Below are positions 1 through 14,186 of a DNA stretch of 64,000 nt, in pieces (within the stretch, counting starts at the first letter, position 1; the number at the start of each line of letters is the position of its first letter). The translations under genes and the position numbers were made by a program. Origin of the DNA: Candidatus Enterenecus stercoripullorum (lineage in GTDB: Bacteria; Bacillota; Clostridia; Oscillospirales; Oscillospiraceae). A model generated the notes under the pieces. That model was given only the letters and a program-made list of their open reading frames with translations, had not been told where the DNA came from and searched no databases. The stretch spans positions 62,001 through 126,000 of the forward strand of contig DVKM01000057.1 in assembly GCA_018716015.1 (NCBI GenBank), read 5' to 3'.

Positions 1-1
1 T

Positions 2-505
2 GCGAAAGGCTGCCGGGACAAGGCGATGCTGGAGGTGCTTTACGCTACTGGGATCCGCGTGTCTGAACTAATTGCGCTAAACATCCAGGACGTCAATCTG
101 CCGGTAAGCTTTCTTCGCTGTGCGGGCAAGCGCAAAGAGCGTATTGTTCCACTTTACCGGGGCGCTGTCAAGGCGTTGGAGGCCTATATCAAGGAAGTGC
201 GGCCACAGCTTCTGGAGGATCCTCAGGAGACCGCGCTGTTCGTCAATATGAACGGTGAACGGATGAGCCGCCAGGGTTTCTGGAAAATCGTCAAGCATTA
301 TCAGGAGAAAGCTGGGATCAGCAAAGATATCACGCCCCACACCCTCCGGCACTCCTTTGCCGCGCATTTGCTGGAGAACGGCGCGGATCTGAAATCCATT
401 CAGGAAATGTTAGGTCATGCGGATATCTCTTCCACGCAGATCTATACCCAAATCGTCAGTCAAAAGCTGAAGGATGTGTACATCAAGGCCCACCCCAGGG
501 CCTGA
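2..505 (+). CDS. Tyrosine recombinase XerC/XerD family, C-terminal part (5' end outside window)
   Basis: Frame is open to the window edge ([24 protein letters not shown]); catalytic [38 protein letters not shown] motif. Confidence 0.9.
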
Positions 506-4626: not shown

Positions 4627-5217
4627 ATGGATTTTACAAAAGAGCGAACAAGTGAATTGAGCGACGAGATACTCTGTGCAAAGGCCTGTTCAGGGGATCG
4701 GCTCTCAGAGGAGCGCTTGGTGCTTCGGTACCAGCAGTTGACCCGCGCCTGTGCCCGCCCTTACTTTTTGGCGGGAGGCGATAGTGAGGATCTGATTCAG
4801 GAGGCCATGTTTGGGCTTTTGAAAGCCATCCGTGAGTTTGATCCCAAACGAAGCGTATCATTCCGAACCTTTGCTGAGGTCTGCATCCGGAACCGAATCC
4901 GTTCTGCCGTGACCTCTGCGGCACGGGGCAAGCACACCCCACTGAATCACAGCGTCCCGTTTGAGCTGTCTATGTTGGAAAGTGAAAACAGCCCGGAAGA
5001 GCTGGTGATCACGCGGGAAGAGGGGGAGGAGAGGCTGGATCAGATCAACCGCCGGCTTTCTCCTTTGGAACAGCGTATACTGGCCCTTTATCTCCAGGGA
5101 CTTTCCTATCGGGATATCGGCCGTCAGGTAGAGCGGCCCACAAAAGCGGTGGATAACGCGGTGCAGCGCATTCGCCGCAAGGTGGCCAAAGTTTACGGCG
5201 TATTCAGCGAAAGCTGA
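4627..5217 (+). CDS. RNA polymerase sigma factor, SigH-like
   Basis: GGDSEDLIQEAMFGLLKAIREFDPKRSVSFRTFAEVCIRNRIRSAVTSAARGKHTPLN and LSYRDIGRQVERPTKAVDNAVQRIRRKV. Confidence 0.9.
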   Translation: MDFTKERTSELSDEILCAKACSGDRLSEERLVLRYQQLTRACARPYFLAGGDSEDLIQEAMFGLLKAIREFDPKRSVSFRTFAEVCIRNRIRSAVTSAARGKHTPLNHSVPFELSMLESENSPEELVITREEGEERLDQINRRLSPLEQRILALYLQGLSYRDIGRQVERPTKAVDNAVQRIRRKVAKVYGVFSES

Positions 5218-10806: not shown

Positions 10807-11436
10807 ATGGTCCAATTGATCCCCTATAACCGCCGTGCCGCAGTGGACTACGCCCACAAGTGGGCATTCAGCCGAAACCCGGCCTACTACGATTTCAGCC
10901 CATTGGGAGGGGACTGTACCAATTTTGCCTCACAATGCCTATATGCCGGGGTGGGCGTGATGAATTTTACACCGGAATTCGGGTGGTACTATATCGACGC
11001 AGAGCAGCGCTCACCGGCCTGGACCGGAGTTCCGTTCTTCTGGGATTTTATGACCCGCCAGGAGCGGACAGTTGGCCCTTTTGGCATCAGCGTACCGCTC
11101 AGCTTATTGCGCCCGGGTGATTTTATCCAACTCCGATTTGAAACCAGCGGCGAGGTTTTCGCCCACACCCCTGTGGTGGTATCAGTAGGATTTCCGCCCA
11201 GGCCGGACAATATCCTGGTGGCGGCTCATTCCAACGATGCTGACAACCGCCCTCTGGACAGCTATGAAAAGGTAGTGGAGATGCGTTATCTCCACATTCT
11301 GGGTGCGTTTGCGCCAGCGCCGGAGAGTGAAGAGGAACCCCAGGAGGGGCAGCTCCCAGCCCAGCCAGAAGCCCAGACTGCCCCAGTTTCGCCATCTGGC
11401 GCGCCTGGAGAGGGGGAATTGACTTCTATTCCTTAG
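10807..11436 (+). CDS. Amidase_6-type (putative amidase) domain protein
   Basis: YNRRAAVDYAHKWAFSRNPAYYDFSPLGGDCTNFASQCLYAG and HTPVVVS...AAHSNDADNRPL; Pro/Glu-rich C-terminal tail. Confidence 0.85.
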   Translation: MVQLIPYNRRAAVDYAHKWAFSRNPAYYDFSPLGGDCTNFASQCLYAGVGVMNFTPEFGWYYIDAEQRSPAWTGVPFFWDFMTRQERTVGPFGISVPLSLLRPGDFIQLRFETSGEVFAHTPVVVSVGFPPRPDNILVAAHSNDADNRPLDSYEKVVEMRYLHILGAFAPAPESEEEPQEGQLPAQPEAQTAPVSPSGAPGEGELTSIP

Positions 11437-12478
11437 AAGATTCTGAAGAAGATTTTGAGTTTGACTGCTTGGGACGGCCACGGGACTTCCGACTGACGCG
11501 TCCCAAAGGGTTTGCCTGCGCCGCGGTGCGCAGGGAATCGCTGTCCACATGGGTATAGATTTGGGTCGTATTTAAATGCTCATGGCCCAATACTTCCTGC
11601 AAAGTGCGGACATCCACACCGTTTTGCAACATTAAAGTAGCTGCCGTATGGCGAAGTTTATGGGCGGAGTATTTTCTGCTGTCCAGGCCGGCAGCAGTCA
11701 GGCGATGCTTGATCATATAGTGGACTGCAGATTTGGTGATCCGGCTACGCTTTCGGGTGATGAACAGCGCGTTGGAATCTGTGGCTCCGGAATGGGCGCG
11801 GACGGCCAGCCAATCTTCAATGGCGCTTTGACAGGCCGCATTGAGAAAAACGATCCGCTCCTTATTGCCCTTTCCAAGCACCCGCAGGCGGTCGCCCTGG
11901 AGGTCGGACAGATTTAGGCCCACCAGCTCGGAAATTCGGATTCCGCAGTTCAAAAATAGGGTAATGATACAGAAATCCCGCTCCGCGTTATCCCCATCAA
12001 TGCTGTCCAGCAGCTGAATGCTCTCATCCAGCGTCAAGAAGCGTGGCAAGGTCTGGCGCTGCCTGGGAGAATCCAATTCTTGGACAGGATTTTCTTCCAG
12101 CAGTTTTGCCTTGCTGACCAGATATTTGTAGAAGGAGCGGATGGTGGCCACCTTGCGTGCGCGGGTAGATGCCAGCAGACCGTAACCGGTATGAGGGCTT
12201 TGAGGGCTTTTGGCCCGGTCACGACTCAAAAAACTGAGATAAGAATAGATGTCGGCCAACCCCACAGACCGGATCAACTCCAGGTCTACGTCGTCAATGG
12301 AAATCTCATCAAAGGCAGCACCGCGCGGGACCAAACCTTTTTCTAATTTGATGTACCGGAAAAAGGTCCGGAGATCCAAAAAATATTCATCTACTGTTTT
12401 TTTGGAATGGCCCTGGATGGTCTCGTGATAGGCCAGGAAGTCACGTAAAATCGCCGGGGCCTGTGTACGGTAGTCCAT
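11426..12478 (-). CDS. Tyrosine recombinase, XerC/XerD-like, stand-alone
   Basis: N-terminal SAM-like domain (ILRDFLAYHETIQGHSKKTVDEYFLDLRTFFRYI), catalytic HKLRHTAATLMLQNGVDVRTLQEVLGHEHLNTTQIYTHVDSD. Confidence 0.93.
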   Translation of the reverse strand: MDYRTQAPAILRDFLAYHETIQGHSKKTVDEYFLDLRTFFRYIKLEKGLVPRGAAFDEISIDDVDLELIRSVGLADIYSYLSFLSRDRAKSPQSPHTGYGLLASTRARKVATIRSFYKYLVSKAKLLEENPVQELDSPRQRQTLPRFLTLDESIQLLDSIDGDNAERDFCIITLFLNCGIRISELVGLNLSDLQGDRLRVLGKGNKERIVFLNAACQSAIEDWLAVRAHSGATDSNALFITRKRSRITKSAVHYMIKHRLTAAGLDSRKYSAHKLRHTAATLMLQNGVDVRTLQEVLGHEHLNTTQIYTHVDSDSLRTAAQANPLGRVSRKSRGRPKQSNSKSSSESSKE

Positions 12479-12550
12479 ATGATTTGAAATCGTTGAAACA
12501 CTGATTCGGGGTAGCGGCCCAGTCCCCAATGGGGCTATTCCCCAATCAGC

Positions 12551-12594
12551 CCCCTCCAACTAAACAAAATTTTTATTTTGTTTAGTTGGAGGGG
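12551..12594. repeat. Perfect 20-bp inverted repeat with TTTT loop upstream of the recombinase gene
   Basis: CCCCTCCAACTAAACAAAAT-TTTT-ATTTTGTTTAGTTGGAGGGG. Confidence 0.95.
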
Positions 12595-12695
12595 TTCGTC
12601 GATTCATCCTCCCTTCTGGTAACACCAGATTTTAAATCGAATATTATAGTTCCCTTCCGCTCAAACTAGCGTCAATGAGAAGGGAGAAAACATGT

Positions 12696-12875
12696 ATGAG
12701 TTTGATTCCGTGTACCCAGGACTGCAAGTTCCAGCAGGATGGATTATGCATGCTGGAACAGACATCGAACACCGGCGGACAAGCTAGCCCCAACGATCTG
12801 TGCCTGAATTTTACCCCACGTTCAAACCAATATGGCAACCGCCTCACGGATGTTGCCGATGCGAATCAAGCTTAG
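12696..12875 (+). CDS. Small Cys-containing protein (59 aa)
   Basis: MSLIPCTQDCKFQQDGLCMLEQTSNTGGQ...CLNF; recalled as a small protein family of Clostridia, sometimes labelled hydroxymyristoyl-ACP dehydratase; ribosome-binding site AAGGGAG upstream. Confidence 0.7.
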   Translation: MSLIPCTQDCKFQQDGLCMLEQTSNTGGQASPNDLCLNFTPRSNQYGNRLTDVADANQA

Positions 12876-14186
12876 GCCTTCCGGCGCGAATAACCTGCCG
12901 CTGCCGCGGGCTGGAACCAGGCATTTGGTAAATCCAAGCCGCCGAACCTCAGACAAGCGCTGACTGAGCGCATGAACCGCACGCAGCTCCCCGGTGAGCC
13001 CTACCTCCCCTATCGCAGCCAAATCGTAGGGCACCGGTTTGTCCCGAAAACTGGATGCCAGAGCTACGATCAGCGCCAGATCGGCGGCGGGTTCATTCAC
13101 AGTAAGCCCACCGATCACATTGACATAAAAATCACAATTTGACAGGGTTAACCCGCCCCGCTTCTCCAGTACAGCGTTCAACATCATCGCGCGATTATAA
13201 TCAAAGCCGTTGCTGGAACGGCGGGAATTTCCATAGGCCGACGGGGTGACCAAGGCCTGCAGCTCAGCCAGGACCGGGCGCACCCCTTCCATAACGCAGG
13301 TCACACAGGAGCCAGGCGAGTCCTTGGGCCGGCCGGACAGCAGCGCCTCAGAAGGGTTGGGGACCTCGGAAAGGCCCTTGTCCCCCATCTCAAATACCCC
13401 GATCTCGTTGGTTGCGCCGAAGCGGTTCTTTGCCGCCCGAAGGATCCGGTAGGAGCTATGCTCATCCCCTTCAAAATGCAGCACACAGTCCACGATGTGC
13501 TCCAACACTTTTGGGCCTGCAAGAGAACCTTCCTTATTGATATGACCCACGACGAACACCGTGACCCCCATTCCCTTCGCCAACTGCATCAGGGACATGG
13601 TGCATTCTTTTACCTGGGCTACACTGCCGGGCGACGACGTGGATGCAGTATTATAAATGGTCTGAATGGAATCGACGATCAAAATATCGGGGTGCTGCTC
13701 TTCCACCGCTGTGATAATGTCCTCTAAACTTGTCTCGGAATAGAGGTAGAGATCAGGCCCTGTAATCCCCAATCTCTGGGCCCGCAGTTTGATCTGCCGC
13801 TCCGACTCTTCTCCGGACACATAAAGGACCTTGGCAAACCGGCAGAGGTTGTCACAGATCTGCAGCATCAGTGTGGATTTCCCAATACCGGGAGCGCCCC
13901 CCACCAGCACCAGAGAACCCTTCACCGCGCCGCCGCCCAATACCCGATCCAGCTCATCCATCCCTGTATGGAACCGCAGTTCATCCGCCGCCTCGACTTC
14001 CGGCAGTGGCCTTGGGCGGCGCAAGGGCTCAGATGAATAAGCTGAAGCCCCCCTTTTTCGGTTCTCCGCCGCCGCAGGCCGTTCTATGACGGTATTCCAC
14101 GCCCCGCATGCAGGGCATCTTCCAAGCCATTTCGGAGTTTCGTTGCCGCATTCCGTGCAGTAAAACATGGTCTTAAATTTTGCCAC
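12822..14186 (-). CDS. radA: DNA repair protein RadA/Sms
   Basis: FYCTECGNETPKWLGRCPACGAWNT zinc finger; GGAPGIGKSTLMLQ Walker A; KNRFGATNEIGVF motif. Confidence 0.97.
   Translation of the reverse strand: MAKFKTMFYCTECGNETPKWLGRCPACGAWNTVIERPAAAENRKRGASAYSSEPLRRPRPLPEVEAADELRFHTGMDELDRVLGGGAVKGSLVLVGGAPGIGKSTLMLQICDNLCRFAKVLYVSGEESERQIKLRAQRLGITGPDLYLYSETSLEDIITAVEEQHPDILIVDSIQTIYNTASTSSPGSVAQVKECTMSLMQLAKGMGVTVFVVGHINKEGSLAGPKVLEHIVDCVLHFEGDEHSSYRILRAAKNRFGATNEIGVFEMGDKGLSEVPNPSEALLSGRPKDSPGSCVTCVMEGVRPVLAELQALVTPSAYGNSRRSSNGFDYNRAMMLNAVLEKRGGLTLSNCDFYVNVIGGLTVNEPAADLALIVALASSFRDKPVPYDLAAIGEVGLTGELRAVHALSQRLSEVRRLGFTKCLVPARGSGRLFAPEGLSLIRIGNIREAVAILV

Follow-up and report, generated by a model that had tools for sequence, protein, structure and literature searches.

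A near-symmetric palindrome upstream of a xerC-like gene as the probable chromosomal dif site of an Oscillospiraceae bacterium

We analysed a stretch of 64,000 nucleotides (hereafter the window), in which a perfect inverted repeat is located between a gene for a tyrosine recombinase and a divergent small open reading frame (ORF). The features referred to below are as follows.

1 to 502, plus strand: C-terminal part of xerD, the gene starting before the window (G000:C41:61627); TIGR02225, 347.8 bits, above the cut-off of 329.6.
11426 to 12478, minus strand: XerC-like tyrosine recombinase of 350 aa with a C-terminal RGRPK (AT-hook-like) tail; Pfam Phage_integrase, best NCBIfam model XerC.
12551 to 12594, no strand assigned: the whole perfect inverted repeat, with 20-bp arms and a 4-nt loop, analysed by folding.
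12551 to 12557, minus strand: GGAGGGG, a G-rich flank next to xerC and the form that a conserved AGGGGAGG box takes here (consensus of 105 sites).
12559 to 12586, minus strand: proposed 28-bp dif core, ACTAAACAAAA-TAAAAA-TTTTGTTTAGT (11-6-11), conserved, with one exact match in each genome, and located where the GC skew switches.
12570 to 12575, minus strand: 6-bp central region TAAAAA (TTTTTA on the plus strand), of the form T-N4-A in nearly all sites; the likely place of strand exchange.
12588 to 12594, plus strand: a second, mirrored G-rich flank away from xerC, which lengthens the arms to 20 bp in this species only and is missing in L003, the nearest relative.
12675 to 12875, plus strand: divergent small Cys-rich ORF, the neighbour of the site, with a homologous ORF at the same place in locus L266.
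12822 to 14186, minus strand: radA (sms), a conserved neighbour (TIGR00416, 592 bits), also found beside the site in L270 and L290-L292.

The two arms of the repeat (12551-12570 and 12575-12594) are 20 nt each, 100% complementary and separated by TTTT, and the window contains no longer perfect short-spaced inverted repeat, the longer ones listed being imperfect. As a single strand, the palindrome folded at -32 kcal/mol, compared with -8 to -9 kcal/mol for shuffled sequences (z about -9 to -10), and both strands were far more stable than their shuffles. It is located upstream of the recombinase gene, with 72 bp between its end and the ATG, and between divergent genes, so that it follows the 3' end of no coding region. 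An earlier reading of the sequence alone (the sequence-only reading) had described the 20-bp repeat, the distance of about 70 bp and the divergent genes, all of which were confirmed. Its span of 12478-12594 does include the repeat but is too wide: the feature proper is 12551-12594, while 12479-12550 is the xerC leader. The recurrent CCCCAAT words that it had pointed out are indeed present at about 12524 and 12540, and together form a second hairpin in the xerC leader; this hairpin was dropped from consideration, being broken already in L003. A search of the palindrome against Rfam gave no family at threshold, only weak miRNA-type matches typical of any perfect hairpin, and a terminator and promoter scan detected nothing on the palindrome and no T-run terminator match. 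The Cys-rich ORF gave no Pfam or NCBIfam match; at its 3' end it overlaps with radA, which is encoded on the other strand.

The recombinase scored 229 bits against the XerC equivalog TIGR02224, the best of all Xer models but under the cut-off of 335, and is therefore named XerC-like; its alignment to E. coli XerD spans the catalytic motifs. The RGRPK tail was found in about 24 of the closest relatives (L004-L025) and is missing in more distant ones. Orthologues of the xerC-like gene are present in nearly all genomes of the genus. The xerD gene, cut by the window edge, lies 11 kb to the left, and the genome also encodes an FtsK that has a gamma domain, as did all seven genomes checked for FtsK-gamma. 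An XerC-like protein, XerD and FtsK-gamma are thus encoded together, although the first scores below its family cut-off. Vertical conservation and the presence of XerD and FtsK-gamma indicate that the xerC-like recombinase is neither mobile nor stand-alone, the latter being the misleading label of the sequence-only reading.

Within the repeat, the 28-bp site at 12559-12586 has an 11-6-11 geometry in which all 22 arm bases are paired. It is non-coding and AT-rich, with G or C at 4 of 28 bases against a local G+C content of 54-60%. We take its arm to be similar to the dif arms of E. coli and B. subtilis. The right arm matches the dif arm of Frankia (TTATGTCAAGT; PMC3025954) at 8 of 11 positions, in agreement with a conserved XerD-type arm. 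Published features of dif sites are a non-coding position near the GC-skew terminus, a palindromic sequence, low G+C content and a conserved XerD arm (PMC2731167), and the site in the window shows all of them. When the same genome was searched for a better canonical dif (TANAATNNNNATTATGTNAA, up to three mismatches), nothing better was found: apart from the present site, all matches were background-like.

The consensus of 105 sites added the one-sided AGGGGAGG box, which faced xerC in 85 of 94 oriented cases. In the other nine it faced away, and hence it cannot simply be the ribosome-binding site of xerC. Since the box is the sole conserved asymmetry of the site apart from the centre, it is a candidate for assigning the arms. 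Elsewhere on five contigs, GGGGAGG words pointed toward dif rather than away from it at 248:40. A role of the box as a KOPS-like loader of FtsK was set aside, because the box next to dif is directed away from dif and because words of the GGAGG type are confounded by ribosome-binding sites.

For comparison, 80 regions of relatives upstream of the orthologous gene were fetched from GTDB genomes. The same palindrome was found upstream of the orthologous recombinase gene in most of them and across the Oscillospiraceae. Its core, AACAAAAT-N4-ATTTTGTT, is nearly invariant and usually present as one exact copy per genome. Conservation is confined to the inner 11-13 bp of each arm; the outer 7 bp are species-specific and absent from L003, and full outer symmetry (CCCCTCC/GGAGGGG) exists in this species only, L006, L018 and L030 being partly symmetric there. 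The 3-5 bp beyond the core are variable yet symmetric (left arms with AACTA, AACTC, AAGTA or AATTG, each matched on the right). In the genome under study, a fragmented assembly of 1.83 Mb and 87% completeness, we found one exact copy, and the next-best places carried three mismatches, no more than a reversed control gives. A whole-genome pattern search detected exactly one core in 31 of the 37 genomes of the genus, this one included, and always near the recombinase gene wherever that gene is assembled. Among the six genomes without a core, five also had no detectable xerC orthologue, and in the sixth a contig ends within xerC, a pattern to be expected of gapped assemblies. The sequence-only reading had named dispersed copies and absence from orthologous loci as evidence against its proposal; the one exact copy has no dispersed counterparts, and nearly every orthologous locus has the site. 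At the level of the order, ACAAAAT-N4-ATTTTGT was found in 225 of 395 genomes, mostly once (about 11 for the reversed control pattern). The exact core is missing in the other 170, which must therefore use a different site. In family f23, arms of ATTATACAAAA...TTTTGTATAAT adjoin a Xer protein of 45-50% identity.

Within the window, the sign of the GC skew changes at about 10-12.5 kb, and on the whole contig the maximum of the cumulative GC skew is 56 bp from the palindrome centre. Among 11 contigs, the best skew change point was within 1.4 kb of the site in eight. In complete or near-complete relatives, the arc between the site and dnaA corresponded to 0.489 (G044), 0.479 (G303), 0.470 (G425), 0.488 (G175) and 0.492 (G664) of the genome. 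The site is a single copy at the replication terminus, with the following exceptions: the arc was off at 0.198 in G194, where the local skew yet switches at the site; the skew maximum was 2-8 kb from the site in G003, G028 and G044; and no skew sign change was detected in G021, nor across the site in G011 and G019.

When viral contigs were scanned for the 20-bp core, four matches were obtained. In an Oscillospiraceae isolate, a gokushovirus-type microvirus prophage (L266/L270; G268:C26:141455-146697) is located exactly in the dif site, flanked by dif-xerC on one side and by the Cys-rich gene and radA on the other. It encodes a replication initiation protein, an endolysin, a pilot-type protein and the capsid protein VP1 (771 bits to PHROG 514), starts in ATTGAACAAAA-TTTTTA-TTTTGTTCAAT and ends 5.2 kb later in a variant with the centre GCCTTA. 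In E. coli, integration of gokushoviruses requires XerC, XerD and a phage dif motif (PMC7062461), and integration of microviruses at dif has been proposed for Bacteroidetes (PMC3091885). By analogy, the prophage in G268 may be taken as an independent, indirect sign that the site is used. Two full-length microvirus prophages were found in 401 genomes of the family, one at dif and the other (G664) not. In addition, the 5.3-kb microvirus contig L265 carries two sites of dif type, a perfect one at 5151 and a variant one at 109; provided that this contig is circular, about 230 bp separate the two. Apart from these viral sites, L275-L280 (G303, G285, G279, G131 and G333; family f13) and G664:C1:2516517-2516775 contain dif-like palindromes in inverted pairs; the two members are spaced by about 220-270 bp, and their centres are reverse complements of each other. 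The f13 pairs lie directly downstream of a distinct, roughly 25%-identical tyrosine recombinase; at the two loci inspected, genes for large proteins of predicted surface type follow downstream of the pairs. By their sequence arrangement, the f13 and G664 pairs look like invertible switches.

Taken together, geometry, copy number, conservation, terminus position, the genes for XerC-like, XerD and FtsK-gamma, and the prophage at the site in a relative suggest, with a probability of about 0.93, that the palindrome serves this Oscillospiraceae bacterium as its chromosomal dif site; the comparative data thus back the earlier suggestion of a dif-like site of the recombinase itself. An autoregulatory operator, at which a dimeric regulator, perhaps the recombinase, would bind the palindrome and control xerC and/or the divergent gene, recombination not being the function of the site, is improbable. 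It would suit a palindrome that lies between divergent genes and was upstream of xerC in all 99 loci where both were seen. However, the distance to xerC ranged from 39 to 605 bp, the polarity of the site was flipped in 9 of 94 cases, the genome searches gave no further operator copies, the position of the site follows the skew switch, and a prophage has integrated at it. In G044, moreover, the site lies near the terminus even though 6.5 kb separate it from xerC, which tells a dif site apart from an operator.

An RNA element, such as a leader attenuator of xerC or a bidirectional terminator with the hairpin formed in the transcript, appears still less probable. Such an element would account for a hairpin that is very stable on either strand and for flanks that vary symmetrically, but it leaves the terminus location unexplained; the central loop and the one-sided box are conserved as DNA in both orientations relative to xerC, primary sequence and not pairing alone is conserved, and neither an Rfam family at threshold nor a T-run terminator was matched. 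We assign the lowest probability of all to an invertible or phase-variation site, where the palindrome would belong to a pair of inverted repeats that the adjacent recombinase flips. Tyrosine recombinases do act on inverted repeats, and similar palindrome pairs exist in some f13 genomes and G664, yet the f13 pairs adjoin a different recombinase, the single exact copy in the present genome has no partner, and the site occupies the same place in relatives. The operator, attenuator, invertible and ssDNA-hairpin options of the sequence-only reading are accordingly disfavoured as the main function.

Doubled chromosomes are cut and rejoined by Xer recombinases at one place only, the dif site at the terminus. 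At the proposed site, XerC and XerD would bind the two 11-bp arms, with a presumptive assignment of each to one arm, and would bring together the dif sites of a chromosome dimer. FtsK at the septum would then activate Xer, and strands would be exchanged by presumed cleavage at the edges of the 6-bp centre to yield two monomers. Xer bound at dif may, as a side effect, influence xerC transcription in an autoregulatory manner.

Near-perfect symmetry of the arms is unusual for a dif site served by two recombinases. While dif sites as a kind are known, this symmetry, the linkage to xerC in a two-recombinase genome and the one-sided AGGGGAGG box appear undescribed; a literature search, mostly without subscription papers and supplementary dif lists, gave no paper joining 'dif site' with 'Oscillospir'. 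We tentatively propose, as a doubtful extension of the dif assignment, that the dif of this order is a distinct near-symmetric variant with a polar AGGGGAGG box, forming a dif-xerC module in two-recombinase genomes; in this variant, the box rather than arm asymmetry might determine the side from which each recombinase or FtsK acts, and bound Xer might also control xerC. For a large group of gut bacteria, the present analysis offers a consensus of dif, with which the replication terminus can be located when an assembly is fragmented. It also identifies a host site that a microvirus uses, and raises the question of how a two-recombinase system works on a symmetric site.

The prophage resembles the dif microviruses known as Escherichia gokushoviruses (PMC7062461) and Bacteroidetes proviruses (PMC3091885) in lacking an integrase and in having dif-type flanks, one dif-like and one variant, but differs in its host, which in the present case belongs to the Oscillospiraceae; Firmicutes did not turn up in a term search of either paper. 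With the canonical dif/XerCD/FtsK system of E. coli, B. subtilis and most bacteria, the site shares a length of 28 bp, the 11-6-11 arrangement, a palindromic, AT-rich and non-coding sequence, a single copy at the GC-skew terminus, and the presence of XerD and FtsK-gamma. It differs from canonical dif in its near-perfectly symmetric arms, in TTTTG instead of TTATG, in its position immediately upstream of xerC, in the one-sided box and in an XerC-like protein under the family cut-off. Linkage of dif to a recombinase gene has been described for the single-recombinase systems XerS (PMC5357621) and XerH (PMC2731167), to neither of which the present genome conforms, XerD being encoded 11 kb away. 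As here, difSL of streptococci and lactococci is linked to its recombinase gene at the terminus, but difSL is a 31-bp site with an 11-bp centre and one recombinase (PMC5357621), dimensions that the 28-bp site with its 6-bp centre, XerC-like protein and XerD does not share. Similarly, difH of epsilonproteobacteria often adjoins the xer gene and has A/T-rich arms, but is served by one recombinase (PMC2731167), whereas the site described here would be served by two.
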